Source: Eubacteriales bacterium (lineage in GTDB: Bacteria > Bacillota > Clostridia > Tissierellales > Dethiosulfatibacteraceae). From it: 34,575 bases of DNA. The translations under genes were made by a program, and so were the position numbers. Below the pieces are notes generated by a model, which ran no database searches, was not told the DNA's origin, and saw only the letters and a list, made by a program, of their open reading frames with translations. This document shows positions 4,684 to 34,575 of the stretch, one piece after another. Location of the stretch: assembly GCA_030694905.1 (NCBI GenBank), contig JAUYTY010000116.1:1-34575 (forward strand), in the 5' to 3' direction. Positions within the stretch are counted from its first letter, which is position 1. Each line of letters begins with the position of its first letter.

Positions 4684-5580
4684 ATGAACAATAAATCATA
4701 TTATATTAGAAAACAACACATATTGCCAAAAGGTCTATTGGTGGCTATCGGCGGAAATGAAGACAAAGAATATGATCTGAGGATTCTTTCCACCATACTG
4801 TCACTGGTGAAAAAACAAAGGAAAAACATCGAAATCATTACTACCGCCAGTCGTTATTCGGAAGATGCCGGTAAAGCCTATTACAAAGCTTTTACCAAAG
4901 AAAGCGATCATAATGTCGGGCTCATGCATATAACCACACGTGAACAGGCCAATGATATCAGTTTATTGCAACGAATCACCGCAGCTGACGTTATTTTTTT
5001 CACTGGAGGGTATCAATTGCGTATTACCAGTGTTTTGGGTGGGTCCCCAATTGAAAAAGAAATTCTTCGTAGGTATGAACAGGATTATTGCATTATCGCC
5101 GGAACCAGTGCCGGGGCTAGTGCCATGTCGAGAACCATGATTTATGGTGGTGAGGGTAAGACAGCCTTGCGAAAAGGCACCGTCAAAGTGTCAGCAGGCA
5201 TGGGACTTATCGACAACGTCATCATTGATACACATTTTGTGGAGCGGGGACGATTCAGTCGTTTAATGGAGGTTGTAAGCATGAATTCAAGTATTACTGG
5301 GATCGGTCTCGGTGAAGACGCTGCGATTGTAATAGAGGATGGTTGTATACTTAGAGCTATTGGGAGTGGTGTCACGGTGATCCTGGATGGTCAGCACATT
5401 AAACATACAAACGTAGCGGATATTGATTTTGATGAATCCATCGCCATTGAAAATCTGGTCATTCACACCATTGTGAATGGGTACGGATATGATCTGTGTG
5501 AAAAGAAATATTTGAAACCCGATAATCTTAATAAGTTGGATATGGTTGAAAGTGAGGCGAATAACTATGAAAATAATTGA
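4684..5580 (+). CDS. cphB: Cyanophycinase (peptidase S51)
   Basis: This 298-residue serine exopeptidase cuts cyanophycin (multi-L-arginyl-poly-L-aspartate) to beta-Asp-Arg dipeptides. The nucleophile elbow is GTSAGASAMS with Ser142. Earlier motifs are LVAIGGNEDK (19-28), TTASRYSEDAG (53-63) and FFTGGYQLR (105-113). The histidine-containing IDTHFVERGRFSRLM (about 181-195) is the other catalytic-region block. Length and motif order are normal. GGAGG lies about 8 bases before the ATG. Its end overlaps the start of cphA by 14 bases, so the two are translationally coupled and co-expressed, giving matched synthesis and mobilisation of a nitrogen reserve. No signal peptide is present, so it acts in the cytoplasm. 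Confidence 0.95.
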   Translation: MNNKSYYIRKQHILPKGLLVAIGGNEDKEYDLRILSTILSLVKKQRKNIEIITTASRYSEDAGKAYYKAFTKESDHNVGLMHITTREQANDISLLQRITAADVIFFTGGYQLRITSVLGGSPIEKEILRRYEQDYCIIAGTSAGASAMSRTMIYGGEGKTALRKGTVKVSAGMGLIDNVIIDTHFVERGRFSRLMEVVSMNSSITGIGLGEDAAIVIEDGCILRAIGSGVTVILDGQHIKHTNVADIDFDESIAIENLVIHTIVNGYGYDLCEKKYLKPDNLNKLDMVESEANNYENN

Positions 5581-12365: not shown

Positions 12366-12516
12366 GAATTTAGAGATTACTAAAAGATGGTGTTTATTAA
12401 CATTTGGTAAGCTTGTTAGAGGGTAATTAAAATACTATTTGATGCTGGCTCGAAAAATTGTCTTCATAGCTTCGCACTTGAGAAATGTATTAATTGCAGG
12501 TTATAGGGAGGATGTT

Positions 12517-15177
12517 ATGAGAAAGTTCTATTTATTTTTAAGCGTCTTCTTATGTTTTGCTTTAATGAGTGCTTTTATTCCTTCTGTGGAAGGCCTATCT
12601 GTCGGATTAGAAGTATGGGTCAGTCCGGTTTACAGTCAAAAAACAGCAGGTTGGGGAATGACCCGCTTTTCAGAGATTAAGGATGCTGTTGATGTTGTAT
12701 TGCCAGGGGGAACGGTGTATGTCGGGCCAGGTACATATTATGAGAATATAATTATAGCAAAGAGTATAACGCTGCAAGGGGAGAATCCCGATAGTATTCC
12801 TGTAATAAACGGTGGGGGAAACGGAGACGTAATCACTCTTCTGTCTGATGGCATAACCTTAAAAAACCTTGAGATAACAAAAGGCAGTTTTGGAATAAAC
12901 GTTGTGTCAGACAATAATACCATCACTGATTGCAGGTTAACTGAAAATTACTTTAGAATCATGATAAGAGGCGCAAACAACAACACAATTACCAGTTGCC
13001 ACTTTTCAGGGAAAGGCGAAGGTATTGCTCTATCTTCCGGCGCGAGCAACAATATTATCACTGACAACACGATATTAGGCAACTATCCTGATCACAGAGG
13101 ATGTACTGCTATCCGCCTTGGCAACTCATCCTATAATTTGATTGCTGACAACACAATGGACTATTATCGGGTGCATGTTCTGCTTGCCGGTTCAGACCAT
13201 AACATTGTTGCCAACAACACCATCTCTAGATCTTGGCCTAGTCCTCTTGTTACAGATTACAGTGGCATCAGCATATATGCTTCCGATTATAATACCATCA
13301 TTAACAACAATATTTCTTCAATTGCACAATCAGGGATCAGAATGATGAATCACTCGACTTATAACACTATTCAGTCAAACAAGATAAAAGACATAGATCA
13401 TGCAGGTATTGACCTATATTATAATACTAATGAAAACCGTATAGAAAACAACGAGATCAATCAAACCACTTATGGCATTATTCTCGATAAGGCTTATGGT
13501 AATAGAATAGACAGCAATAGTTTTATTAACACTAATAAATCATTCGACAATGGGAGCAATATCTGGAATTATATGGGCAAGGGAAACTATTGGTCCGATT
13601 ACAAAGGCGTTGATTCAAACAATGATGGGTTGGGAGATACTTCAGTTCTCATATTGCCATCAGGTAAACAGACATATCCGTTAATTGACGCTCCAATAAT
13701 TGTTGCCGCTCAAAAACCAGATCTTGAATCAGCTCCTGTCAAACCGATAGAAGGAGAATTACTGGTCATCACTTCAACAGAGACTTGGGAGAATAAAACC
13801 ATAGAGCAAAGAAGTCCGATCATGATTATGGAAGGTGGCACTTTGACGATCAGCAACTCAAATCTTCAGTTGTTTAGCGGTATCTCTGTATGGAATGGCG
13901 GGAAATTAATACTGGAAAATTCAGAATTGCTTGTTAGCACAATTGAAGGTAACTTTATCGAGGTGTTTCCTGATGCCGAGCTGGTCGTGCGAAACAGTGT
14001 CATAACAGGCAAAGGGCACTCAATCTGGGTGCGGAAAGACACCAGACTATTAGTTGAAAACAATGAATTTCACCAATTAGGTAGCTGGACCGCGGCATTG
14101 CATGTTGAAACAGACGGCGCTGTTATTAAAAACAACATAATAGAGGGTAGCTATCTCGCCATTCAGCTTAATCAGTCCAAGGACCATCAGATAATTGGGA
14201 ATACAATCCTTGATGGCGTTATAGGTGTTAACAGTTATGGTGGCCTGTCCAATAGCAACCATTGTATTAAAGATAATGACATATCAAATATGATAGTTGC
14301 AGGATATCATGGAGCTGGCGTAACAAACAGCATCATTACAGGAAATACGTTCAGGAACATATGGGGATCGCCTGTTTCTTTAAGCCATTACTCTCCCGAT
14401 AGACATACTGAAGGCAATGTTCTGTATTATAATAACTTCATTAATTCAGGCAGTGCTTTGGATAACGGAAATGGTAATTTATGGTATTTCGGCAATAGTG
14501 GCAACTATTGGGACGATTATCTCGAGAAAAATCCTGATGCAAAGGAAGATGCGCTGTATGCCGGCACATGGGACAAAGATTATTCCATAACGTTAGTAGA
14601 AGGTTTAAGTAATTCTGACAAATATCCTTTAATGGTTGAAGATAAACCCAGCGATTGGGCATTGGTGGAGATAGACCGGGCAAAGACAGCAAACATCACA
14701 ACAACCAAAGTTTTAGGTGGTTATCATACGAATATTACCAGGGAAGAATTTTGTGAATTGGCTGTGAAACTTTATGAAGCTTTAAGCGGAAAGAAAGCCC
14801 AGCCTGTTTTTCCAAATCCATTTAATGATACGGATAATCCTGAAATCTTAAAGGCGAATCGTCTTGGGATAGTCCTCGGAGTATCAACTGACAGATTCGC
14901 GCCTGAGAGTTCCATCACAAGACAGGAACTTGCTGTGATGCTGTTTAGAACATTAAAAATTACTATACCGGAACTTGGATCACCCGCTGCAGGGGCGGAA
15001 AGATTTTCCGATAAAGATGAAATAGCTTCTTGGTCTATCGATGCCATCTTATTTTTGAATGACCACGATATAATGAAAGGCGTGGGAGAGGATAGAATAA
15101 ACCCAAAAGGCAACACAACAAAAGAACAGGCCATCGCTTTGGCAATAAGAACGTATGGGACTTTCGTTAATCAATGA
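12517..15177 (+). CDS. Surface NosD/CASH beta-helix protein with C-terminal SLH repeats
   Basis: This 886-residue exported protein begins with a signal peptide (MRKFYLFLSVFLCFALMSA). A right-handed beta-helix follows (about 60-385), with many NNTI, SNNIIT and GNTI-type rungs of the NosD/CASH family, ending in GNYWSDYKGVDSNNDG. A second helix segment (about 410-700) repeats the theme and ends in GNYWDDY. The last 170 or so residues hold SLH repeats (NITREEFCELAVKLYEAL; SITRQELAVMLFRTLK; NTTKEQAIALAIRTYG), which bind secondary wall polymers. The frame is open from 12439, but AGGGAGG just upstream and the signal peptide select ATG 12517. Such helices bind or cut polysaccharides; no catalytic set was recognised. 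It is probably an S-layer-associated carbohydrate-interacting protein. Confidence 0.88.
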   Translation: MRKFYLFLSVFLCFALMSAFIPSVEGLSVGLEVWVSPVYSQKTAGWGMTRFSEIKDAVDVVLPGGTVYVGPGTYYENIIIAKSITLQGENPDSIPVINGGGNGDVITLLSDGITLKNLEITKGSFGINVVSDNNTITDCRLTENYFRIMIRGANNNTITSCHFSGKGEGIALSSGASNNIITDNTILGNYPDHRGCTAIRLGNSSYNLIADNTMDYYRVHVLLAGSDHNIVANNTISRSWPSPLVTDYSGISIYASDYNTIINNNISSIAQSGIRMMNHSTYNTIQSNKIKDIDHAGIDLYYNTNENRIENNEINQTTYGIILDKAYGNRIDSNSFINTNKSFDNGSNIWNYMGKGNYWSDYKGVDSNNDGLGDTSVLILPSGKQTYPLIDAPIIVAAQKPDLESAPVKPIEGELLVITSTETWENKTIEQRSPIMIMEGGTLTISNSNLQLFSGISVWNGGKLILENSELLVSTIEGNFIEVFPDAELVVRNSVITGKGHSIWVRKDTRLLVENNEFHQLGSWTAALHVETDGAVIKNNIIEGSYLAIQLNQSKDHQIIGNTILDGVIGVNSYGGLSNSNHCIKDNDISNMIVAGYHGAGVTNSIITGNTFRNIWGSPVSLSHYSPDRHTEGNVLYYNNFINSGSALDNGNGNLWYFGNSGNYWDDYLEKNPDAKEDALYAGTWDKDYSITLVEGLSNSDKYPLMVEDKPSDWALVEIDRAKTANITTTKVLGGYHTNITREEFCELAVKLYEALSGKKAQPVFPNPFNDTDNPEILKANRLGIVLGVSTDRFAPESSITRQELAVMLFRTLKITIPELGSPAAGAERFSDKDEIASWSIDAILFLNDHDIMKGVGEDRINPKGNTTKEQAIALAIRTYGTFVNQ

Positions 15178-22079: not shown

Positions 22080-22931
22080 ATGGCGAGAAAAAAATCTATA
22101 CTCGATCTTTATAAGATGAAAGAAGAAGGCGAGAAGCTGACATGGATTACAGCCTATGATTTTCCAATGGCATCATTTGCCGAACAGGCAGGAATGGATA
22201 TGATTCTAGTGGGCGATTCACTGGGGATGGTGGTTTTGGGTTATAAAGGGACTGTTCCGGTAACCATGGAAGATTGCATCTCCCATTGTCAGGCGGTAAG
22301 ACGAGGTGCTCCGAATACGTTTGCCATGGGTGACATGCCTTTTGGTTCATATCAGATATCCGATGAAGATGCAGTCAGGAACGCGGTGAGATTTCTCAAA
22401 GAGTCTGACATGGACGCTGTTAAGCTTGAAGGCGGAGTACGTGTCGCAAGTAGGATTAAAGCGATATCAGAGGCTGGTATCGTGGTATGCGGCCATATTG
22501 GGTTAACACCTCAGAGTTCAGGTGCATTGGGTGGTTTTAAAGCTCAAGGTAGAAAAGTTAGCGGGGCCAGGGATATGATACGTGATGCCTTGGCTGTTCA
22601 GGATGCTGGTGCGAGAATGATACTGCTGGAAGCCATGCCACCGGAGCTGACCGCATTTATTACGGAACTGCTTGATATACCTGTATATGGGATTGGTGCT
22701 GGGTTGCCATGTGACGGACAGTTGATCATATGCGGAGATATGTTGGGTCTTTTCCAAGCTTTTACACCGAAATTTGTCAAACAATATGCCAATGTCGCTG
22801 AAATATGTGTCAATGCTATGAAAGCATATGTTGATGATGTTAAGCATTCAGCTTTTCCGGAAGATAAGCATGTCTATCATATTCAGGACAGCATTGAGGA
22901 TTTCGAAAAACTCTTTGACGAATTTAGATAA
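22080..22931 (+). CDS. panB: 3-methyl-2-oxobutanoate hydroxymethyltransferase (ketopantoate hydroxymethyltransferase)
   Basis: This 283-residue enzyme moves a hydroxymethyl group from methylene-tetrahydrofolate to 2-ketoisovalerate, giving ketopantoate, the first step to pantothenate. All expected active-site residues are seen: VGDSLGM (Asp46) and GDMPFGSY (Asp85) for Mg2+, VKLEGG (Lys115, Glu117), GHIGLTPQS (His139) and LLEAMP (Glu184). The C-terminal GIGAGLPCDGQ loop is also intact. Length is normal. GGAGG precedes the ATG. No panC, panD or panE lies nearby. Instead a DUF1116 gene follows after 27 bases, so this copy may serve a different pathway or run in the cleavage direction; that is inference. 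Confidence 0.93.
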   Translation: MARKKSILDLYKMKEEGEKLTWITAYDFPMASFAEQAGMDMILVGDSLGMVVLGYKGTVPVTMEDCISHCQAVRRGAPNTFAMGDMPFGSYQISDEDAVRNAVRFLKESDMDAVKLEGGVRVASRIKAISEAGIVVCGHIGLTPQSSGALGGFKAQGRKVSGARDMIRDALAVQDAGARMILLEAMPPELTAFITELLDIPVYGIGAGLPCDGQLIICGDMLGLFQAFTPKFVKQYANVAEICVNAMKAYVDDVKHSAFPEDKHVYHIQDSIEDFEKLFDEFR

Positions 22932-22958
22932 TTGTTAAATTGCATTTAGGAGGAAATC

Positions 22959-24212
22959 ATGAACTCTTTAAACAGATTAACTGAAATAGCCAATCAACAG
23001 GCGATAGAGAGAATTCAATCATCCAGGATTTTTTTAACTGAAATGAGCCAAGCCAAGGAAAAGATTCCATTTTTTGACGGTTATACTTTATTGCATAGCG
23101 GACCGCCTCTTGAATGGTCGAACATGAACACAGCAATGCGAAACGCCATATGCGGCGCTATTGTTTACGAAGGATGGGCTGAAAATCTATCGGATGCTTT
23201 TGACATGGCCGACCAAGGAAAGATAAAATTTGGCAGCGACAATGAAAACAATGCTGTAGGACCAATGGCTGGCATCATTTCACCCACTATGCCGGTATTC
23301 GTTTTTGAAAACCAGATATTCGGAAACAAGGCCTATGTCACAATCAACGAAGGATTGGGAAAGACGCTGCGTTTTGGTGCGAATGATGAATCCGTCATTG
23401 AGAGGTTGAAGTGGATTGAAAAAACCCTTGCACCTATCTTAAAAGAAGCTTTGCTGATAAGTGGACCTATTGATATTACATCCATTATAACTCAAGGCAT
23501 ACAAAGAGGAGACGAGTGCCACAACAGAAACAAGGCGTCAAATAATCTATTTGTCAATCAGATGGCGCCATGGATGGTGAAATGCAGTTCATCCAGGGAA
23601 GACATTGCCGGAGCGCTTACTTTCATGGCGGGTAATGATCATTTCTTTCTCAATCTATCGATGGGAAACAGCAAGGCCACTATGGATGCCATTCATGATA
23701 TAGAACACTGCTCAATAGTATCCTGCATGAGCACCAATGGTTACCAATTGGGTATCCAAGTCTCGGGGACAGGTCGACAATGGTTTACTGCGCCATCACC
23801 ATATGCAAAAGGAAAATACTTTGAAGGCTATGACGAATCTGATGCCAGTACGGTAATGGGGGATTCATACATTTCAGAGGCTTGTGGGATAGGTGCATTT
23901 GCCATGGGCGCTTCCTTGGGAATCGGGCAGTTCATAGGCATCGACACAAAACAGGCTCAGGACTATTCTCTTGGAATGTATGAGATTACAGTGTCTGAAC
24001 ATGAGCATTTCAAAATTCCTGTCTTTGATTTTAGAGGAACACCATTGGGCATAGATATAAGGAAGGTCATCTCTTCAGGAAGGCTACCCATAATAAATAC
24101 CGGCATAGCATACAAAAACCCCGGTGTTGGTCAGATTGGCGCTGGTATAGTCTATCCACCGATGGCGTGCTTCAGAAAAGCCTATGAATCCTATTTACAG
24201 ATAAATCAGTAA
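22959..24212 (+). CDS. DUF1116 (AllG/YlbE-like) protein
   Basis: This 417-residue cytosolic protein fits DUF1116. Its blocks are LLHSGPPLEWSNMNTAMRNA (about 44-63), AICGAIVYEGWA, NAVGPMAGIISPTMPVFVFE and ALTFMAGNDHFFLNLSMGNS. They continue with MSTNGYQLGIQVSGTGRQWF and a C-terminal GIGAFAMGAS and PLGIDIRKV. DUF1116 includes AllG, one of the three AllFGH proteins linked to oxamate carbamoyl transfer in allantoin breakdown. The partners AllF (FdrA-like) and AllH are not adjacent here. It is co-transcribed with panB. Its activity in this context is unknown; a transferase acting on a CoA- or carbamoyl-type intermediate is a guess. Confidence 0.82.
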   Translation: MNSLNRLTEIANQQAIERIQSSRIFLTEMSQAKEKIPFFDGYTLLHSGPPLEWSNMNTAMRNAICGAIVYEGWAENLSDAFDMADQGKIKFGSDNENNAVGPMAGIISPTMPVFVFENQIFGNKAYVTINEGLGKTLRFGANDESVIERLKWIEKTLAPILKEALLISGPIDITSIITQGIQRGDECHNRNKASNNLFVNQMAPWMVKCSSSREDIAGALTFMAGNDHFFLNLSMGNSKATMDAIHDIEHCSIVSCMSTNGYQLGIQVSGTGRQWFTAPSPYAKGKYFEGYDESDASTVMGDSYISEACGIGAFAMGASLGIGQFIGIDTKQAQDYSLGMYEITVSEHEHFKIPVFDFRGTPLGIDIRKVISSGRLPIINTGIAYKNPGVGQIGAGIVYPPMACFRKAYESYLQINQ

Positions 24213-25915: not shown

Positions 25916-26036
25916 ACCTTAATTGAGGTAACTCATAAACCCTCCATAATATATGATAGACATTTTTTCATTGAACAATTAACGCCAATAATTTCCTAAA
26001 TATAGCAACTTTTCCCCGAGTTGCTATATTTTTTTT
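25916..26036 (+). ncRNA. Candidate small RNA between promoter and terminator
   Basis: A promoter-like element (25881-25909) and a strong terminator (25999-26036) bound about 120 bases with no reading frame of note. It contains a 5' inverted repeat (25914-25931), a single-stranded-looking CCCTCC (25940-25945) complementary to ribosome sites, and a terminator loop TTTCCCCG. C-rich unpaired patches are a known seed type in Gram-positive regulatory RNAs. I match it to no known family. The alternative is simply the 3' untranslated end of ppk2-GNAT. Confidence 0.3.
25999..26036 (+). terminator. Very strong Rho-independent terminator
   Basis: A 12-bp perfect stem (25999-26010 with 26019-26030, core TATAGCAACT) closes an 8-base TTTCCCCG loop and is followed by T to 26036. 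It separates ppk2-GNAT or the candidate small RNA from the long operon downstream. The 471-base gap 25858-26328 thus holds a promoter, this terminator, a second promoter and an operator. Confidence 0.92.
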
Positions 26037-26146: not shown

Positions 26147-26175
26147 TTGACAAGGAAAAGGTTTTCTATTATCAT
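26147..26175 (+). promoter_or_regulatory. Promoter of the KASIII-LIV-CoA-transferase operon
   Basis: A perfect TTGACA (26147-26152) and TATCAT (26170-26175) are 17 bases apart. It is the only good promoter before the eight-gene operon. The predicted leader is about 145 bases. Confidence 0.72.
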
Positions 26176-26178
26176 TGA

Positions 26179-26198
26179 ATATGAAAGGTGTTTCATAT
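26179..26198 (+). promoter_or_regulatory. Operator-like inverted repeat at the operon start point
   Basis: ATATGAAA (26179-26186) and TTTCATAT (26191-26198) form a perfect 8+8 bp dyad with a GGTG spacer, directly after the -10. Its position over the start point suits a dimeric repressor of TetR or GntR type. The regulator gene is not in the window. Confidence 0.6.
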
Positions 26199-26217
26199 CT
26201 CATGTTTTAGAACCGCT

Positions 26218-26319
26218 ATGAGACTGAAATGGCTAAGAGAGCATAAATTCAATGACTGGGGGTATTGCGTGGGAGTAGAAGGAAATGTATTGGCACTTAA
26301 GGGAGATATGACGCTCTAG
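26218..26319 (+). CDS. Possible 33-aa leader peptide before the KASIII-like gene
   Basis: An ATG at 26218 opens 33 codons (MRLKWLREHKFNDWGYCVGV, continuing to MTL) and stops at 26319, inside the CTAGGAGG ribosome site of the next gene. The residues look protein-like and the stop placement would allow coupling. No ribosome site precedes the ATG, however, and I recognise no family. It may be a leader peptide, a remnant or chance. Confidence 0.25.
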   Translation: MRLKWLREHKFNDWGYCVGVEGNVLALKGDMTL

Positions 26320-26328
26320 GAGGTAAAA

Positions 26329-27345
26329 ATGACAACGGTAGGGATTGTTGGAATAGGCATATATATTCCAGATAGAATAATGACAGGCAAAGAAATTTCA
26401 GATGAAACCAAAGGTGTATGGACCGAGGAAGCGGTAGTCAACAAGCTTGGCATCAGACAAAAAAACCTCCCCGGTAAAAATGATGGGACCCAAGAAATGG
26501 GTGCGTTGGCAGCATTGGACGTCCTGAAAAAAACAGGAACCGATCCTATGGCTATTGATGTGATTCTTTGTGTGGGAGAAGAGTGGAAAGAATACCCTCT
26601 AACAACTTCAGCTCTTTATATTCAAGACAGGATCAATGCAAAGAACGCATGGGGTATTGACTTGGCCAATAGATGCTGCACAACAGTATCGACCATGAAA
26701 ATTGCAAAAGACATGCTGATCAGCGATGAATCAATCAACACCATACTCATTGCAGGCGGCTACAGAAACTGTGACCTTGTGGATTATACAGACAATGATA
26801 TGTCAATGATGTACAATCTGGGAGCGGGGGGTGGCGCCATTATACTCAAAAAAAATCACGATAGAAATCTACTATTAGGTTCCCATATTATCTCGGACGG
26901 ATCCCTATCAAGAACTGCAGGAGTCGAGATTGGTGGGACAGTCAAGACAATCAATACTCAAAATTTAGAAGTTGCCAACATGTTAAGACTAATGGAACCA
27001 AAAAAAATGAAAGACAGACTCAATGAAGTATCCATGAAGAATTGGTACGAATGCATTGATCAATCCCTCTTAAAATCAGGATTAGAGAGAAAGGACATTG
27101 GTTACTTGGCAATACTGCATATGAAAAGATCAGGTCACAATCAGATCATGAAGGACTTGGGTTTGGATGACGGGAAAACGATATATCTCGAGCAATACGG
27201 ACATATCGGACAGATTGATCAGATTTTATCGCTGCAATTAGGACTGGACGAGAAAAAAATCGAAGAAGGCACCATCGTTTGTATGGTCGCAGCAGGCATT
27301 GGATATGCCTGGGCTGCTAATATCATCAGATGGGGCAAGAGTTAA
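26329..27345 (+). CDS. KASIII/HMG-CoA-synthase-like thiolase-fold enzyme A
   Basis: This 338-residue protein has the thiolase fold of the 3-oxoacyl-ACP synthase III family. It opens VGIVGIGIYIPDRIMT. The nucleophile region is DLANRCCTTVSTMKIAKDM, with Cys116 aligned to the catalytic Cys and an adjacent Cys117. His264 or His270 lies in LHMKRSGHNQIM, where the catalytic His is expected. The usual Asn motif (GNTSAAS-like) is instead YGHIGQIDQ, with His292. It ends AAGIGYAWAANIIRWGK. The family forms or breaks C-C bonds in acyl-thioesters by Claisen chemistry. A paralogue (32241-33275) shares these features and closes the transport block. AGGAGG precedes the ATG. It probably acts on a CoA ester made by the CoA-transferase downstream, not in fatty-acid synthesis, as no ACP or fab gene is near. 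Confidence 0.8.
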   Translation: MTTVGIVGIGIYIPDRIMTGKEISDETKGVWTEEAVVNKLGIRQKNLPGKNDGTQEMGALAALDVLKKTGTDPMAIDVILCVGEEWKEYPLTTSALYIQDRINAKNAWGIDLANRCCTTVSTMKIAKDMLISDESINTILIAGGYRNCDLVDYTDNDMSMMYNLGAGGGAIILKKNHDRNLLLGSHIISDGSLSRTAGVEIGGTVKTINTQNLEVANMLRLMEPKKMKDRLNEVSMKNWYECIDQSLLKSGLERKDIGYLAILHMKRSGHNQIMKDLGLDDGKTIYLEQYGHIGQIDQILSLQLGLDEKKIEEGTIVCMVAAGIGYAWAANIIRWGKS

Positions 27346-27422
27346 TTTGTATTAAAAAGGGATTTACAAAAAGACTTATGACCTGAACAGGTTATAAATA
27401 TTAACAAAAAATGGAGGAGAAA

Positions 27423-28670
27423 ATGAAAACCAAAAAAATCATCGTAATACTGGTAGTACTTGCTATGATGCTTAACATCGCAGCCTGCTCACAACCACAG
27501 CAAACTACAACAGCCGCACCTACTACAGCAGCGCCAACAACAGCAGCACCGACTGAAGCACCAAAAGAGCCGATCGTAATTGGTGGATTGACATCGCTTA
27601 GCGGTGGTTTGATGGACTACGGCAATCAGATGAAAAGAGGCTTTGAACTTGGTCTGGAGTATGCCACAGACGGAACTATGATGGTAGCCGGAAGACCAAT
27701 TGAAGTCATCTGGGAAGACACAACCACAGTCCCTGAAGTTGCAAGAGAAAGAGCAATCAAGCTGCTTGACGAAGACGAAGTGGATATGATAGTTGGTCCT
27801 ACATCTTCATCCGATGCTTTTGCTATTCTTGGTCTAGCAGAAGAGTACGAAACAGTGTTCATTCTCGAGCCGGCAGCAGCAGATTTTTTGACAGGTGAAG
27901 TGGCAAACAGATATATCTTTAGAACAGGAAGAAATACAGCACAGGATGCAGCGGCAATGGCAGCAGTTATGGCAGGATCCAAAGTATCTATATTCGCACC
28001 TGACAGCGCATTCGGAAGAGCCTATACAGATCCGTTCAAACCAGCTTTGGAAGCAGCAGGTGGACAGGTCTTGGCTGAAGAGTATGCACCCCTTGATTCA
28101 ACTAACTTCGCACCTTATATTCAAAGAATTATTGACTCAAAACCAGACTATTGTTTTGTAATATGGGCAGGCGCGAACGATCCATGGAGACAAATGACAG
28201 AAATGGGATTGTTTGAAGCGACAAAAGTGTCAACAGGAGCACCTGAAATTGCAGCACTTAGAAACATGATGCAATTGGAAGGTATGCCAGGATTTACTCT
28301 GTATTACCATGGCGTGGCAAAGAACCCGGTTAATGAATGGTTGATAAAAGAGCATACGGAAAGATTTGGTAACCCTCCGGATGTATTCGTTTCCGGTGGT
28401 ATGGCAGCAGCTATGGCAGCCGTCAAAGCTTTTGAGACTACAGATGGAAGCACTGATGCAGAAGATTTGATTCAAGCTATGAGAGGTATGGAATTTGACT
28501 CGCCGACAGGCATGAGATATTTCAGATCAGAAGACCATCAGGCACAGCAGGTATTGTTTGAAATCACATACACCAAAGTCGATGGCGTGGATCACATTGT
28601 TCCTGAATTGGTAAGGGTAATCCCGATAGAAGAAATATACAATCCGATTCAAACAACTCATCCCAGATAA
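27423..28670 (+). CDS. LIV-type ABC transporter substrate-binding lipoprotein
   Basis: This 415-residue extracellular binding protein is of the leucine/isoleucine/valine (type I) class. The signal peptide ends in lipobox IAAC (Cys22). A Thr-Ala-Pro repeat linker (three TTAAP units, about 30-47) tethers the domain. The mature fold starts with IVIGGLTSLSGGLMDYGNQM and includes DEVDMIVGPTSSSDAFAIL and the hinge-region block KVSIFAPDSAFGRAY. ATG 27411 is in frame, but GGAGG lies between it and ATG 27423, which I choose. Members bind amino acids, amides, aromatic acids or other small acids, so the name leucine-binding should not be taken literally. It is followed by all four remaining subunits. 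Confidence 0.92.
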   Translation: MKTKKIIVILVVLAMMLNIAACSQPQQTTTAAPTTAAPTTAAPTEAPKEPIVIGGLTSLSGGLMDYGNQMKRGFELGLEYATDGTMMVAGRPIEVIWEDTTTVPEVARERAIKLLDEDEVDMIVGPTSSSDAFAILGLAEEYETVFILEPAAADFLTGEVANRYIFRTGRNTAQDAAAMAAVMAGSKVSIFAPDSAFGRAYTDPFKPALEAAGGQVLAEEYAPLDSTNFAPYIQRIIDSKPDYCFVIWAGANDPWRQMTEMGLFEATKVSTGAPEIAALRNMMQLEGMPGFTLYYHGVAKNPVNEWLIKEHTERFGNPPDVFVSGGMAAAMAAVKAFETTDGSTDAEDLIQAMRGMEFDSPTGMRYFRSEDHQAQQVLFEITYTKVDGVDHIVPELVRVIPIEEIYNPIQTTHPR

Positions 28671-28698
28671 ATAAATAATAAAGGGGAAGGATGTAGAA

Positions 28699-29469
28699 AT
28701 GTCAGAAATAATTTTAAGAACAGAAAATCTGGGCATCAGCTTTGGCGCTCACAAGGCGGTAAACAACGTTAGTCTTGAAATTGAAAAGGGTAAATTGACA
28801 ACCATCTTGGGACCAAATGGCGCAGGCAAAACAACGTTCTTTAATCTAGTGAGCGGTCTACTAACCCCTACAACCGGAAAAATCTTTTTTAAGGGGACAG
28901 ATGTTACAAATCTGTCCCCCATTAAAAGGGTTGAAGCGGGAATGGGAAGGTCTTTTCAGTTAACCAATGTTTTTCCAACACTTTCAGCACATGAAAACAT
29001 CAGGTTGGCTGCACAGTCACATCAGAAAGTGGGCTTTAAGATATTTACCAATCACAGGAAATATAAGAACGTAAATGAAAAGACAGAGCTGATTTTAGAG
29101 AGAGTTTTGCTGAAAGATAAGAAAAATACATTAGCCTGTGACCTGACTCATGGTGAGCAAAGAAAACTGGAATTAGGGATGGTATTGGCCCTTGAACCTG
29201 AAGTATTGCTTCTGGATGAACCAACAGCGGGCATGGCTATTGAAGAAGTACCCGCAATGATTGAAATAATAAGGAACGCTCATCAATCGGGCACAACGGT
29301 GGTTTTGATAGAACACAAGATGGACATGGTTAAAATTCTATCGGATAGATTGGTCATATTGGTTAACGGATCTGTCATGGCAGATGGAGATCCCAAAACA
29401 GTATCAGAGAATCCGGAAGTCCTTAAAGCTTACCTGGGAGGTGGGATGTTAGATGAAGTCTCTTCTTAA
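28699..29469 (+). CDS. livG: LIV-type ABC transporter ATPase LivG
   Basis: This 256-residue ATPase has Walker A LGPNGAGKTTFFN (about 37-49), signature LTHGEQRKLELGM (the LivG form, with Thr-His-Gly for Ser-Gly-Gly), Walker B VLLLDEPTAGM and the switch EHKMD. FQLTNVFPTLSAHENIRLA is typical of LivG. It pairs with LivF on the cytoplasmic face to power uptake. The gene is 28 bases after the binding-protein gene and overlaps livF by 17 bases. Confidence 0.94.
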   Translation: MSEIILRTENLGISFGAHKAVNNVSLEIEKGKLTTILGPNGAGKTTFFNLVSGLLTPTTGKIFFKGTDVTNLSPIKRVEAGMGRSFQLTNVFPTLSAHENIRLAAQSHQKVGFKIFTNHRKYKNVNEKTELILERVLLKDKKNTLACDLTHGEQRKLELGMVLALEPEVLLLDEPTAGMAIEEVPAMIEIIRNAHQSGTTVVLIEHKMDMVKILSDRLVILVNGSVMADGDPKTVSENPEVLKAYLGGGMLDEVSS

Positions 29470-30157
29470 AGCGGAAAATTTAGTTTCTTACATTGGTCCT
29501 TATACCATTCTTCAGGGAGTTGACATCGAAGTGGGTCATGGGGAAGCGGTTGTCATTCTTGGTAGAAATGGGGCAGGAAAGACCACATTCCTTAGAACAG
29601 TAATGGGATTGGTTCATACCAGAAGCGGCGTTCTAGAACTGGATGGTCAAAATCTGGCAGGAATGCCAACTTACGCAATTCAAAAGCTGGGGATAGGTTA
29701 TGTGCCTGAGAATTATGGAACCTTTGATCTGTTGACGGTGGAAGAAAACCTACGGCTTGCAATGTGGAAAGAAGACGCCGAAACCATGGAGCGAAGGGAC
29801 TATGTTTTGGACCTTTTTCCGGACCTGAAGGTTGCTTACAAAAGATACTCAAAAACTTTGAGTGGCGGACAGAGACAGATGCTGTCCATAGCTAGACCAT
29901 TGGTGAACAACAATAAAATACTATTGATAGATGAACCGAGTAAAGGCTTGGCACCAGTCATAATTGAAAGAGTAGCACTTGCGCTTAGGGAAATCAAAAA
30001 AACCACAACTGTGCTTCTTGTAGAACAGAATTTTGCGCTTGCCTGTGCCGTTGGGGAAAGATTCTATATCATCAATGAAGGAAAAACTGTTGAAAACGGT
30101 GCGATGGAAAACCTGATTAAGGATAAGGAACTGCAGGCTAAGCATCTGGGGATATAA
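29453..30157 (+). CDS. livF: LIV-type ABC transporter ATPase LivF
   Basis: This 234-residue ATPase has Walker A LGRNGAGKTTFLRTVMGL, the LivF-type GIGYVPENYGTFDLLTVEENL, signature LSGGQRQMLSIARPL, Walker B ILLIDEPSKGLAP and switch VEQNF. The start lies inside the end of livG, with GGGAGGTGGG upstream, implying translational coupling. It completes the ATPase pair. The permease gene livH follows after 38 bases behind a good AGGAGG site. Confidence 0.94.
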   Translation: MKSLLKAENLVSYIGPYTILQGVDIEVGHGEAVVILGRNGAGKTTFLRTVMGLVHTRSGVLELDGQNLAGMPTYAIQKLGIGYVPENYGTFDLLTVEENLRLAMWKEDAETMERRDYVLDLFPDLKVAYKRYSKTLSGGQRQMLSIARPLVNNNKILLIDEPSKGLAPVIIERVALALREIKKTTTVLLVEQNFALACAVGERFYIINEGKTVENGAMENLIKDKELQAKHLGI

Positions 30158-30195
30158 TGCTTGAAGTTTTAGCGGATCAAAAGAAGGAGGATTAA

Positions 30196-31188
30196 ATGGG
30201 TACATTAATAACTTTAATTGTAAGCGGTCTTGCGGAAGGGGCATTGATATTCTTAATGGCGTCAGGCTTGTCTATCATACTAGGCATGATGGGAGTTATC
30301 AACTTCGCCCACGGAACCTTGTTTCTTTGGGGAGGTTATGCTTACATGTTTTCATATTATTCAATTAGAGCCAGAGTGATATTGAGTGTTTTCCCCGATG
30401 CATTTCAGACTGGGACCCAAGGTGGAATACTCAGAGTAACCGGTGTTCAGCTACAAGCCGGACAATATTTACCATTCTCTCAAGAGTTGCTAATATTTGT
30501 CGTCAGTATTCTTATTGCAGTTTCGGTAGTCTTCATTATGGGAATTATATTTGAAAAATTATTTATTAGCCGTGTTTACGGGAATGCGCCGGCGCAAATT
30601 CTGATCACATTGGGATTGCAGGTTGTCTTCACTGACTTGGTGAGGGTTATTTGGGGACCCAATATGATTCCGATGTCTAGGCCTCCGTTTCTGGATGGAG
30701 TTTCATCATTTGCAGGTGGAAGGATAGCACATTATAATGTTTTTCTTATTATTGTTGGGGCAACAGTAGCAATTATTATTCATAGGGTCATTACTAAAAC
30801 TAGAATCGGGATGGTAATCAGAGCTGGATTGCAAAGCCCGGAAAATGTACAGGCACTTGGCATAAACATAAGAAAATACTTCACTGTCATATTTGCTTGC
30901 GGTGCTGCTTTGGCTGGATTAGGCGGTGCACTCTATATGCCGCTTGTTGGAAATGTCGTATCTTCTGCAGGTATGAACAATCAAATTCTGGCATTTATAG
31001 TCGTGGTAATCGGTGGACTTGGAAATTTCATGGGATCATTCCTTGGCAGCATCTTTTTAGGATTGATGGGAGTCGGTGTTGCTGTATTCTTGCCGGCCAT
31101 TTCAGTTGTGGCCAATGTCCTGGTAATGGCCATCGTCTTGGTATTTAGACCTGATGGATTATTTGGAAAGGCGGTGAACAAATCATGA
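30196..31188 (+). CDS. livH: LIV-type ABC transporter permease LivH
   Basis: This 330-residue permease has about eight membrane helices. Diagnostic blocks are GALIFLMASGLSIILGMMGV and INFAHGTLFLWGGYAYMF near the N-terminus and a C-terminal FIVVVIGGLGNFMGSFLGS with the EAA-like contact loop before it (GINIRKYF). It is longer than the usual 290-300 residues because of an extracellular insert of about 35 residues after the second helix (about 57-92, containing QTGTQGGILRVTGVQ). The stop overlaps the livM start (ATGA), so the two permeases are coupled. Confidence 0.93.
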   Translation: MGTLITLIVSGLAEGALIFLMASGLSIILGMMGVINFAHGTLFLWGGYAYMFSYYSIRARVILSVFPDAFQTGTQGGILRVTGVQLQAGQYLPFSQELLIFVVSILIAVSVVFIMGIIFEKLFISRVYGNAPAQILITLGLQVVFTDLVRVIWGPNMIPMSRPPFLDGVSSFAGGRIAHYNVFLIIVGATVAIIIHRVITKTRIGMVIRAGLQSPENVQALGINIRKYFTVIFACGAALAGLGGALYMPLVGNVVSSAGMNNQILAFIVVVIGGLGNFMGSFLGSIFLGLMGVGVAVFLPAISVVANVLVMAIVLVFRPDGLFGKAVNKS

Positions 31189-32213
31189 GTATAAGAATAA
31201 ATGTAGCGGATCAAATGGGATCAAAAAAAATGGGGCCATTGGCTCTGGTATCGTTAATAATACTAGTAATCGGAATGTTTGTTTTACCGCGTTATCTAAA
31301 AAACGCCCAACTGATAATGATGAGTCGAATTTTTTTGTTGGCAGTATATGGTATGAGCTATGATATATTGAGAGGATACACTGGGTTCATCAACCTTGGC
31401 CAGGCTATCTTCTTTGGAAGTGGCGTTTATATGGGCGTTATCTTCTTGAACATTCAAAACGACTTGACTTATTTCATGCTGGCTATCCTAGCTATATCAG
31501 CTTTGTCAGTCATAGGTGGTTATATTATGAGCAAGATAGTCTTAAAAACCGGTGGAGTGGTTGCATCTGCTATGATTACCCTTGCATTGGGGGAAATAGT
31601 CAGAAGCATCGCAGAGAGATGGCGATTTGTTACAGGTGGACAGGATGGTCTCCCGATGAGAGCTTCCAGAGTGGCTTTAGATCCATTGTTTGAAACAAGA
31701 ATAGGCGCGTATTACTTCGCATTGGTATTCCTGATTGTAATGACACTTGCGTTGAGGCAATTTGTATTGTCGCCGACAGGTCGTGTGCTACTGTCAATCA
31801 GGGAAAATGAGCAACGATCAAGATTTTTGGGTTTCGATACCAATAAATATAAAGCAATCGCAATAATAGTGTCGGCATTGGCTTCAGGTTGGACAGGCGT
31901 GTTTTTCGCAGTCATCGCAAGATTTGCCAATACAGATTACTTAAGTATTCAATACACGTTAAACGCTTTGCTGATAACGCTGGTCGGGGGAACAGGTACT
32001 TTATACGGGGCTATCATAGGTAGTGCCTTTGTAACATGGATCAATAATTTTCTGCTGACGCTGGCTAATAGTTATCCAGGAGCAACTATTCTAAGATTCC
32101 CAATGCTTTTTATCGGTAGCGTTTACATATTATTGGTCATTTTCATGCCTTATGGCATAATGGGGGGCATCTACAGACTGCAGGCCAAACTAAACTTAGG
32201 GAAAGACAAATAA
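31185..32213 (+). CDS. livM: LIV-type ABC transporter permease LivM
   Basis: This 342-residue permease partners LivH. It has the LivM pattern YGMSYDILRGYTGFINLGQA (about 54-73), FFGSGVYMGV, the conserved GGQDGLPM loop, the cytoplasmic ATPase-contact loop SIRENEQRSRFLGFDTNKYK and the closing LVGGTGTLYGAIIGSAFV. About nine membrane helices are visible. It starts at ATG 31185 within the livH stop. The KASIII-like gene B follows after 27 bases with AGGAGG, so metabolism and uptake are encoded in one transcript. Confidence 0.94.
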   Translation: MSIRINVADQMGSKKMGPLALVSLIILVIGMFVLPRYLKNAQLIMMSRIFLLAVYGMSYDILRGYTGFINLGQAIFFGSGVYMGVIFLNIQNDLTYFMLAILAISALSVIGGYIMSKIVLKTGGVVASAMITLALGEIVRSIAERWRFVTGGQDGLPMRASRVALDPLFETRIGAYYFALVFLIVMTLALRQFVLSPTGRVLLSIRENEQRSRFLGFDTNKYKAIAIIVSALASGWTGVFFAVIARFANTDYLSIQYTLNALLITLVGGTGTLYGAIIGSAFVTWINNFLLTLANSYPGATILRFPMLFIGSVYILLVIFMPYGIMGGIYRLQAKLNLGKDK

Positions 32214-32240
32214 GCATTAAAGTCTTAAAAGGAGGTTCAA

Positions 32241-33275
32241 ATGGACAAAAAATTCAAAGTGGGCATATTGGATTACGCTATTTACACACCGGAAGAAATG
32301 ATTACAGCAGAGGAATTGTCTAAACTGGTGAATATTAGACCTGAAGTGTTAAGGGATAAGATGGGGATCAACAAGAAATTTGTAGGTGGATCTGAAGACC
32401 ATTCTGGCATGATGGCAACAAAGGCCAGTAAAGCAGTATTGGAAAAAACAGGTATCGATCCGCAGACGATCGACATGATTTTATATGCTGGAGAAACCTA
32501 CGCTGAATACATTTGTTGGACAGTGGGCATTAAGATACAAAATGAAATAGGTGCGGACAACGCATACGCTTGGGACCTGTCCTTCAGGTGCGCCGGAACA
32601 CCATTGGCTATAAAAATTGCTAAAGATATGATGTATGCTGATGAAAACCTGAAGACGGTTCTAGTGACAGGTGGCAATACAAATTCTTATCTGGTGGATT
32701 ATCAAGATCCAATGCAGTCATTTATGTTTGATATGTGTCCCGGTGGATTTGCAATGATTCTTAAAAGAGATTATGATGTAAATGAAGTATTGGGCAGCGG
32801 CATCATTACAGACCATGTTTTCAGTGACGATGTTATTGGGAAATTCGGCGGTACGTTGCATCCTATCACCAGCGAGATGGCTGGCGATCCGGAAAAATTC
32901 AGGAGAGCTAAACTACTTAACTTATCAGATCCGGAAGGAATGAAAAAAAGGCTGGCTGAAAGATCACTTCCCGGTTTTACCGGAGCAGTCAGAAAAGCTT
33001 TGAAAGCATCCGGACTGAAAGCAAGCGATATAGATTTCATAGGCATTACCCATATCAACCCAAAGGCACACTACGCCATCATGGAAGAGTTGGGAATATC
33101 GGAGGAAAAAACATTCTATCTATCCGATTTTGGACACTGCGGACATGCGGATCAATTGATAGCATTGCGTGAGGGTGTCAAAGCAGGAAAAATCAAGGAT
33201 GGTTCAGTGGTCGCTCTTGTGGGAGCTGGTACAGGTTATGCATTTGCCTGTTCGTTGATCAAATGGGGAAAATAA
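32241..33275 (+). CDS. KASIII/HMG-CoA-synthase-like thiolase-fold enzyme B
   Basis: This 344-residue paralogue of the operon's first gene opens VGILDYAIYTPEEMIT. The nucleophile block is DLSFRCAGTPLAIKIAKDM with Cys117. ITHINPKAHYAIMEELG supplies His271 and His277. The motif that is normally Asn-containing reads DFGHCGHADQL with His299, as in enzyme A. It ends GAGTGYAFACSLIKWGK. The two share layout and C-terminus throughout, yet differ enough in the middle to be old paralogues. They may form a heteromer, as PqsB and PqsC do, or act on successive intermediates; both keep a candidate nucleophilic Cys. It lies between livM and the CoA-transferase gene, with 27- and 22-base gaps. Confidence 0.8.
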   Translation: MDKKFKVGILDYAIYTPEEMITAEELSKLVNIRPEVLRDKMGINKKFVGGSEDHSGMMATKASKAVLEKTGIDPQTIDMILYAGETYAEYICWTVGIKIQNEIGADNAYAWDLSFRCAGTPLAIKIAKDMMYADENLKTVLVTGGNTNSYLVDYQDPMQSFMFDMCPGGFAMILKRDYDVNEVLGSGIITDHVFSDDVIGKFGGTLHPITSEMAGDPEKFRRAKLLNLSDPEGMKKRLAERSLPGFTGAVRKALKASGLKASDIDFIGITHINPKAHYAIMEELGISEEKTFYLSDFGHCGHADQLIALREGVKAGKIKDGSVVALVGAGTGYAFACSLIKWGK

Positions 33276-33297
33276 TCAAAAAAGGAGACTAACAACG

Positions 33298-34575
33298 ATG
33301 AGTGTAAAGGATTTATATGCCAGTAAAGTAAAAGATCTTAACGGAATTCTAAACCTGTTCAAATCAGGGGACTTCATCATAAGCGCATTAGGCGGGAGCG
33401 AACCAATCACTATTTTGTCACAGATTCACAGGATAAAGGAACTTGGCGTCAGGGACTGTGATCTTAGCAATTGTCTTCCTATGGCTGATTATGAATACAT
33501 AAAAAACCCCGAGTATAAGGACACCATTTTTACAAATGGCTGGTTCTATTCTCCTCCAATAAGAAAAGCACATCCTAACGGCAATGTGTCACATGTGCCC
33601 CAACATCTTCATTTTGCTTACACAAAGCGTCGCTATGCAGCAGGAGACAGAAGAAAGGTGTTGTTATGCACTTGCTCTCCAATGGACAAACATGGCAATC
33701 TGACACTTTCCTTGGGATGTACCTATGAGAAGGAAGTCATTGAAGACGGCGCTTATGTGATTGCAGAAGTCAACCCCAATCTACCGAGAACTATGGGTGA
33801 TACGACCATACATATCAGTGAACTGGATGCCATATTGGAAGTGGACTACAAAATACCTTCATTACCGGAAGGCTTGTTTACTGAAAAAGACAACAGAATC
33901 GGTGAGTTTATAGCAGACAATATTCAGGATGGGTCAACTATCCAATTAGGGATTGGCGGCATACCAAATGCGGTGGCAAATGCCTTGAAAAGCAAAAGGC
34001 GTCTGGGTATCCATACAGAAATGTTTACAGATGGCATGGTTGAGCTTGTTGAATGTGGTGCGGTTGACAACTCAATGAAGACAATCTACAGGGGAAAATC
34101 CATCGCTACCTTTGCATTAGGCAGTCAAAAGCTATATGATTATCTTGATGACAACCTATCAGTGGTATTAAGAAAAGGAAGTTGGACAAACGATCCACAT
34201 GTGGTTGGGCAAAACCATAAGATGGTGTCCATCAACACAACCCTTGAAGTGGATCTGTTCGGCCAATGCGCTTCGGAATCCATAGGACCTGTCCAATTTT
34301 CAGGTACAGGAGGCCAGGCAGACACGGCTGTTGGCGCTCAGAATTGTCCGGAAGGCAAATCGTTTATTGCGCTATACTCCACTGCGGATGTTAGAGGTGA
34401 AGACGGAAATAAGAAAATCATATCTAAGATTACACCACTGTTGAAAACCGGTTCAATTGTCAGCCTGTCCCGAAATGATGTTGATTACGTTGTTACAGAG
34501 TACGGTGTGGCTTGGCTAAGAGGCCAGTCTATAAGAGAAAGGGTTAAGAGATTGATTGCAATTGCTCATCCTGAT
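33298..34575 (+). CDS. Family-I CoA-transferase (acetyl-CoA hydrolase/transferase type), cut by the window edge
   Basis: An open frame runs from ATG 33298, with AAGGAG upstream, to the window end: 426 codons without a stop. The product fits the 4-hydroxybutyrate/butyryl-CoA:acetate CoA-transferase and acetyl-CoA hydrolase family. It has the N-terminal FKSGDFIISALGGSEP, the middle IQLGIGGIPNAVANAL and the catalytic block FGQCASESIGPVQFSGTGGQ with the candidate active-site Glu327. A later VDYVVTEYGVAWLRG is the usual C-terminal motif. Full-length members are 430-460 residues, so only a few dozen codons are missing. It would activate an imported acid to its CoA thioester, using acetyl-CoA or another donor. 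It is the last visible gene of the operon that begins at 26329. Confidence 0.92.
   Translation, partial: MSVKDLYASKVKDLNGILNLFKSGDFIISALGGSEPITILSQIHRIKELGVRDCDLSNCLPMADYEYIKNPEYKDTIFTNGWFYSPPIRKAHPNGNVSHVPQHLHFAYTKRRYAAGDRRKVLLCTCSPMDKHGNLTLSLGCTYEKEVIEDGAYVIAEVNPNLPRTMGDTTIHISELDAILEVDYKIPSLPEGLFTEKDNRIGEFIADNIQDGSTIQLGIGGIPNAVANALKSKRRLGIHTEMFTDGMVELVECGAVDNSMKTIYRGKSIATFALGSQKLYDYLDDNLSVVLRKGSWTNDPHVVGQNHKMVSINTTLEVDLFGQCASESIGPVQFSGTGGQADTAVGAQNCPEGKSFIALYSTADVRGEDGNKKIISKITPLLKTGSIVSLSRNDVDYVVTEYGVAWLRGQSIRERVKRLIAIAHPD

Follow-up and report, generated by a model that had tools for sequence, protein, structure and literature searches.

An eight-gene operon at the end of a 34,575-nucleotide stretch of DNA from an Eubacteriales bacterium (assembly GCA_030694905.1, contig JAUYTY010000116.1) was analysed computationally. 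The stretch, called the window below, is the whole of contig C42 in a genome (G000) of 2.81 Mb that is 99% complete. The operon combines a LIV-type ABC importer and a CoA-transferase with two enzymes, A and B, that have the fold of β-ketoacyl-acyl carrier protein (ACP) synthase III (KASIII), and it is a variant on a known pathway type built around very probably misnamed enzymes. Uptake followed by CoA-dependent breakdown is fairly well supported as the class of pathway. Within this class the preferred reading, held at somewhat less than even confidence, is a regulated system for a short 3-hydroxy or 3-oxo acid, with (R)-3-hydroxybutyrate or small oligoesters of polyhydroxybutyrate (PHB) as the most likely substrate and with A and B as putative thiolase-like enzymes; the substrate is suggested by gene context. 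A preliminary description of the window had proposed uptake and CoA-dependent degradation of an unknown acid. Uptake and CoA-dependent breakdown of an acid are supported, but the acid need not be called wholly unknown, since short (R)-3-hydroxyacids or their oligoesters are indicated by the gene context.

All eight genes lie on the forward strand in the order A (26329..27345), substrate-binding lipoprotein (SBP, 27411..28670), LivG-type ATPase (28699..29469), LivF-type ATPase (29453..30157), LivH-type permease (30196..31188), LivM-type permease (31185..32213), B (32241..33275) and CoA-transferase (33298..34575, the contig end). The gaps measure 22-77 bases, and LivG/LivF and LivH/LivM overlap by 17 and 4 bases, respectively, so that coordinates and domain matches confirm the single-strand operon with short gaps and two overlaps that had been described. 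The SBP is a Peripla_BP_6 protein (PF13458, 208.7 bits) with a lipobox ending in NIAAC and 3n0x/3nnd as the closest solved structures; its true start is probably 27423 rather than 27411, because GGAGG lies within the first codons. With the ATPases (PF00005 in both, and PF12399 in LivG) and permeases (PF02653 in both), it makes up the set of one SBP, two ATPases and two permeases found in LIV/HAAT importers of branched-chain amino acids and urea. In contrast to those importers, the equivalog cut-offs are missed (LivG, 185 of 362 bits; UrtD, 224 of 304), and other loci with A contain another LIV lineage or a sodium symporter instead. The last gene, described earlier as a family-I CoA-transferase, does encode a CoA-transferase, now more precisely of the 4-hydroxybutyrate/butyryl-CoA type: PF02550 (43.7 bits, cut-off 24) and PF13336 (181.7 bits, cut-off 23.7) are matched, 4-hydroxybutyrate CoA-transferase (3gk7) is the best PDB match, and the butyryl-CoA:acetate CoA-transferase profile TIGR03948 gives 256 bits against a cut-off of 674.8 for a protein that is cut by the contig end.

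The CoA-transferase is cut short because the window is an entire contig, which contains 426 of about 442 amino acids. The reverse complement of contig C41 opens with a reading frame ending in RDELRHSAKELMIW and a stop, which fits the absent C-terminus; a close homologue, compared with this start, reads HPDFRDELRFHAKKNMIW, and the gap between the contigs amounts to about two bases. The operon therefore runs on into C41, where the genes past 34575, which the preliminary description had left to be read, proved to be the end of the CoA-transferase, an FMN_red flavoprotein with a flavodoxin fold and a CxxCxxC motif, an α/β-hydrolase (ABH5) and a TetR regulator, all on the reverse strand of that contig. 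This order agrees with the orders B-CoA-transferase-flavoprotein and CoA-transferase-ABH5-TetR found in other genomes.

Both A and B score above the curated cut-off (315 bits) of the NF005308/PRK06840 family, named '3-oxoacyl-ACP synthase' (454.9 bits for A and 377.8 for B, with 401 for the C-type and 403 for the haloarchaeal enzymes), and they share 40% identity and fall into separate clades of the tree. As judged from their sequences, they are not KASIII enzymes despite the family name. The FabH profiles NF006829 (cut-off 249 bits) and TIGR00747 (292 bits) give 110 and 103 bits for A and 127 and 128 bits for B, at most about half of the cut-offs, and the HMG-CoA synthase profiles are also missed (48.5 of 244 and 40.6 of 353 bits for A; 65.1 of 244 for B). 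With FabH, to which they are about 20% identical, A and B have the fold and the nucleophilic cysteine in common, and they differ in having no fatty-acid synthesis neighbours. The predicted structure of A (pLDDT 88.5, from 16 sequences) has the KASIII fold, with TM 0.82-0.91 for the best matches, and its structural relatives FabH and OleA are condensing enzymes.

The active site was compared in an alignment referenced to Escherichia coli FabH, the sequence of which was entered by hand and carries C112, H244 and N274 at the expected numbers. The catalytic cysteine is retained in all but two of 118 aligned sequences, and it is the only member of the Cys-His-Asn triad kept in A and B. At the position of FabH His244, A has Leu and B has Thr, followed by a histidine (264 in A), and every A, B and C member has His in place of Asn274; the haloarchaeal enzymes likewise keep the cysteine and His292 and have lost both of the other FabH residues. 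Among 104 A, B and C members, Cys116 occurs in 102, and His292 and an acidic residue at position 88 occur in all; the acid extends to all 117 non-FabH members and the haloarchaeal enzymes. The residues noted in A are Cys116, His264, His292, Glu85 and Glu88.

The database names, together with the presence of FabF and no intact FabH in G000, could be taken to indicate an ordinary branched-chain amino acid importer next to KASIII enzymes that start fatty-acid synthesis. This explanation is extremely improbable, since A and B lie far under the FabH cut-offs and lack His244 and Asn274, most other members of the taxonomic family of G000 are without both FabH and A, the gene set and operator form a catabolic unit, and haloarchaea have the cassette as well. 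A role of A and B in starting fatty-acid synthesis was rejected on residues, profile scores and gene context; the active-site residues and gene context speak against the ACP-dependent fatty-acid synthesis implied by the PRK06840 label, and the name 3-oxoacyl-ACP synthase is very probably wrong. No experiment was found behind this family name, and phage records gave weak FabH-like matches and nothing stronger. Across the eight genomes of the taxonomic family of G000, FabF is present in all and FabH above the cut-off in none.

A and B may catalyze non-decarboxylating Claisen or retro-Claisen chemistry. Cys116 and the GHxG histidine (His292) of the thiolase signature are present, and the second cysteine (CxGGG) is replaced by Ala. 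In OleA, a Glu of one subunit serves as the base in the active site of the other subunit (PMC7064751). The acid at position 88 occurs as EYP or EYI, at a loop position that may lie near that of OleA Glu117, which is followed by Pro and contributed by the partner subunit. OleA shares the thiolase superfamily and a KASIII-like fold with A and B; it begins hydrocarbon and β-lactone synthesis from acyl-CoAs, whereas the neighbours of A and B are catabolic. An OleABCD-type β-lactone pathway was considered, the same four enzyme classes being present in haloarchaea, but the importer, MaoC, acyl-CoA dehydrogenase (ACAD) and the frequent CoA-transferase in place of a ligase favour breakdown.

When species genomes were scanned, relatives of A with 52-76% identity turned up at 69 loci, which belong to Bacillota, Izemoplasmatales, Actinomycetota, Bacteroidota, Ignavibacteria and Proteobacteria. 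In the 40 A loci of at least 15 kb (long loci), an importer is present in 36, an acid-activating gene (CoA-transferase or AMP-ligase) in 35, an α/β-hydrolase in 32, a short-chain dehydrogenase/reductase (SDR) or crotonase/3-hydroxyacyl-CoA dehydrogenase (HBD) in 30, and an ordinary thiolase in 22. The importer beside A varies between two LIV lineages and, in Bacteroidota, a sodium symporter with a porin and a lipoprotein hydrolase; because it is exchangeable, the constant core consists of activation and A. On plasmids of the haloarchaea Halobaculum, Salarchaeum and Halomicrococcus (L232-L239), the order SBP-ATPase-ATPase-permease-permease-PRK06840 enzyme is the same as SBP-LivG-LivF-LivH-LivM-B in the window, and most of the cassettes viewed have a ligase, a hydrolase, MaoC and at times an SDR nearby; some adjoin a 2-oxoacid dehydrogenase gene set. 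These cassettes and the ligase-type C modules mostly have no other thiolase listed nearby. The link of KASIII-like enzyme, importer and CoA-activating enzyme, first noticed in the window, is thus kept across phyla and in archaea. At or near distant homologues of A or B (L213, L214, L218, L220-L222, L224 and L230), an ATPase-type protein of 1,050-1,090 amino acids was found that is MalT-like by its N-terminus; its assignment as a fused acyl-CoA mutase was dropped because the N-terminus has a P-loop and the sequence of a MalT-like regulator.

The recurrent partners of A are SDR, MaoC, thiolase, ACAD with Etf, and α/β-hydrolases. For the conversion of (R)-3-hydroxyacyl-CoA to 3-ketoacyl-CoA, two sets of partners recur that can stand in for each other. 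One is a FabG/acetoacetyl-CoA reductase-type SDR; the other, which combines MaoC, crotonase and HBD, replaces the SDR in L076 and L158. In G000, an SDR that shares 85% identity with its counterpart immediately upstream of A in G002 lies on C129 with a CoA-transferase and a GntP-family permease, MaoC-ACAD-EtfB-EtfA lies on C51, and thiolases are found on C128 and other contigs. A further partner, ABH11, belongs to the intracellular short-chain-length polyhydroxyalkanoate (PHA) depolymerase family (NF050089, cut-off 300 bits; 334-458 bits, and 406 bits for the G000 protein on C159). A protein above this cut-off occurs in 16 of 100 related genomes, 15 of which also have A (Fisher p 2.3e-13, in a test that spans nine families and treats related genomes as independent); ABH11 and A are on different contigs in the fragmented assemblies of G000, G015, G030 and G056. 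It is established that 3-hydroxybutyrate can be fermented to acetate and butyrate (PMC10096456). These SDR or MaoC partners, the co-occurrence of ABH11 and the known fermentation are the reasons for ranking 3-hydroxybutyrate and its oligoesters first.

In the proposed pathway, the LIV-type ABC system would import the acid and the CoA-transferase would activate it, while oligoesters could be opened by the C41 α/β-hydrolase and the C159 PHA-depolymerase-family enzyme. The (R)-3-hydroxyacyl-CoA may then be oxidized by a FabG/PhaB-like SDR or, alternatively, by the MaoC route that other genomes hold together with crotonase and 3-hydroxyacyl-CoA dehydrogenase. A and B, as rewired KASIII-fold enzymes, would cleave the 3-ketoacyl-CoA by a non-decarboxylating retro-Claisen reaction, B perhaps acting on a different chain length, and ACAD with Etf could permit disproportionation to butyrate. 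To our knowledge, the Ilyobacter-type pathway as described includes neither a LIV importer nor a KASIII-like enzyme, both of which the present operon contains. A further difference is the lack of a PF10503 extracellular PHB depolymerase in G000. The steps after uptake, namely CoA activation, 3-hydroxyacyl-CoA oxidation, thiolysis and formation of acetate and butyrate, are the same as in the Ilyobacter-type fermentation of 3-hydroxybutyrate and PHB (PMC10096456).

Several observations weigh against this pathway. A may not be the thiolase, because an ordinary thiolase is present in 22 of the 40 long loci, and the second thiolase cysteine is missing from A and B. In G000, SDR, thiolase and ABH11 do not adjoin A, and the relatedness of the genomes in the co-occurrence test has to be kept in mind. 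The extracellular PHB depolymerase PF10503, considered as a co-marker and rejected, is absent from 99 of the 100 genomes searched, including G000, so oligomers would have to come from other organisms. Furthermore, the haloarchaeal hydrolase is PcaD-like and not of the PHA-depolymerase type, and family names of α/β-hydrolases are a weak guide to substrate.

With the same pathway and substrate class, A and B could instead perform acyl transfer, in which the cysteine attacks the ester (or CoA ester) of an activated 3-hydroxybutyrate oligomer and passes the acyl group on to CoA, so that the energy otherwise lost in hydrolysis is conserved. A and B adjoin the activating enzyme even in minimal modules (ligase and A in L097; B and CoA-transferase in L131, L132 and L182), ester hydrolases often accompany them, and loci that already have a thiolase would have no need of a second enzyme for C-C cleavage. 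The PDB matches also include KASIII-fold proteins, such as CerJ, that function outside fatty-acid synthesis. On the other hand, the fixed acidic residue is better suited to carbanion chemistry, and we know of no KASIII-fold enzyme that thiolyses a polyester; acyl transfer is accordingly regarded as rather unlikely. Operation in the synthetic direction has a still smaller probability; here A and B would condense the imported and activated acid with acetyl-CoA, and reverse β-oxidation for chain elongation would be completed by SDR, MaoC and ACAD/Etf. Every step of reverse β-oxidation is encoded near A in several genomes, and the structural relatives FabH and OleA are condensing enzymes, but the conserved importers, the PHA-depolymerase-family esterases and the outer-membrane porin and lipoprotein hydrolase of Bacteroidota point to consumption, and the presence of the cassette in haloarchaea too counts against elongation.

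The preliminary description had suggested examining how widely the bracketing of the LIV importer by A and B is conserved. General conservation of this order is not supported, A being constant and B rare. Orthologues of B were found in G015 and G030 (69%), G506 (62%), G849 (74%) and, in divergent form, G998 (53%); in G015 and G030, B is paired with CoA-transferase at a locus of its own, together with the flavoprotein and a sigma-54 activator. Besides the window, G849 is the only genome found to combine A, B and the same LIV system in a single cluster, so the arrangement is uncommon and not unique. The G849 cluster comprises KS22, CoA-transferase, A, hydrolase, LivMHFG (70-84% identical to the importer in the window), SBP, flavoprotein, B and MaoC and continues with Etf, ACAD, thiolase, HBD and crotonase. 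The CxxCxxC FMN_red flavoprotein is regular in B and C modules (L131, L132, L182 and L211; C modules L151-L158).

KS22 is a further KASIII-like subfamily beside A in L141, L143, L211, L216 and Bacteroidota loci, with the cysteine and acidic residue 88 kept, Tyr at the position of Asn274 and Thr at that of His244. G000 carries a decayed copy on the reverse strand (C106:2461-3117; L240), with stops, frame shifts and the motifs SQINKS and GYTGSG. Its best match is KS22 of G849, intact KS22 being found in G849, G032 and G044, and its identification as a FabH remnant was rejected. An ancestor of G000 probably had all three KASIII-like enzymes. The occurrence of up to three such enzymes in one cluster (L211) would suit another acid, for example an aromatic or branched one, that bears an ester, lactone or β-diketone function and on which A, B and KS22 might act one after another, perhaps as heterodimers. 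PcaD-type lactonases are the nearest matches of ABH5 and the haloarchaeal hydrolase, LIV systems are known to carry aromatic acids, and a KAS-III heterodimer is known from lipstatin synthesis (reference 12 in PMC7064751). This alternative is nevertheless considered unlikely, as the β-oxidation partners and co-occurring PHA depolymerase are typical of short aliphatic 3-hydroxyacids, and no recurring aromatic-degradation gene was noticed in the loci.

Regulation of the operon may depend on the TetR protein encoded at its end, which would repress it through a palindrome. A terminator-like hairpin with a stem of 13-14 bp followed by a T run (25998..26031, forward strand) closes the upstream unit (GNAT) and is followed by a sigma-70 type promoter, TTGACA-17-TATCAT (26147..26175, forward strand), which matches the consensus in 11 of 12 positions and is the top match of the stretch; promoter-like matches are not more frequent in the stretch (25) than in shuffles (22.5). 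Three bases past the -10 element lies the putative operator ATATGAAAGGTGTTTCATAT (26179..26198, forward strand), a perfect palindrome of the form AYATGAA-N6-TTCATRT with a single exact copy in the G000 genome. At 13 or more of 14 positions, the motif has 52 sites in loci that encode the same TetR (31 of 42) and 4 sites in loci without it (3 of 77). The latter loci are the fairer control because the consensus was refined on the data, and many of the sites come from related Izemoplasmatales loci. All but one of the 56 sites are intergenic, and the three loci with the motif and no TetR include G002 of the same genus, where it lies upstream of SDR-A, and one C module. The presence of the motif in both A modules and ligase-type C modules suggests that the two respond to inducers of one kind.

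Elsewhere, the window encodes a cyanophycinase-like peptidase S51 followed by a cyanophycin synthetase-like protein (4684-8182), a right-handed β-helix (NosD-like) protein of 912 amino acids with an S-layer homology domain (12439-15177), and ketopantoate hydroxymethyltransferase followed by a protein of the AllG family (oxamate carbamoyltransferase subunit; 22080-24212). An Rfam scan of the window gave no match.

The literature searched, with incomplete coverage, contains no description of the cassette, in agreement with the earlier statement that no described pathway has this gene order. The physiology of 3-hydroxyacid and polyester uptake has been described, and no such genes for it were found in that literature. 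With somewhat less confidence than for the preferred reading, a catabolic system that spans bacteria and archaea can be envisaged. Its KASIII-fold enzymes, wrongly labelled as initiators of fatty-acid synthesis, would follow immediately upon a dedicated ABC importer and cleave 3-ketoacyl-CoA or 3-hydroxyacid oligoesters in a new CoA-dependent reaction; in many bacteria, a single type of TetR operator would control the system. Anaerobes and haloarchaea would in this way have an unrecognised route for consuming the products of microbial polyester breakdown. If the family is catabolic, the public label '3-oxoacyl-ACP synthase', carried for example by proteins of haloarchaeal plasmids, is wrong. 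The rewired active site would widen the chemistry of the KASIII fold, and through the cassette a genetic basis can be tested for the uptake of 3-hydroxyacids or small polyesters in anaerobic sediments, guts and digesters.

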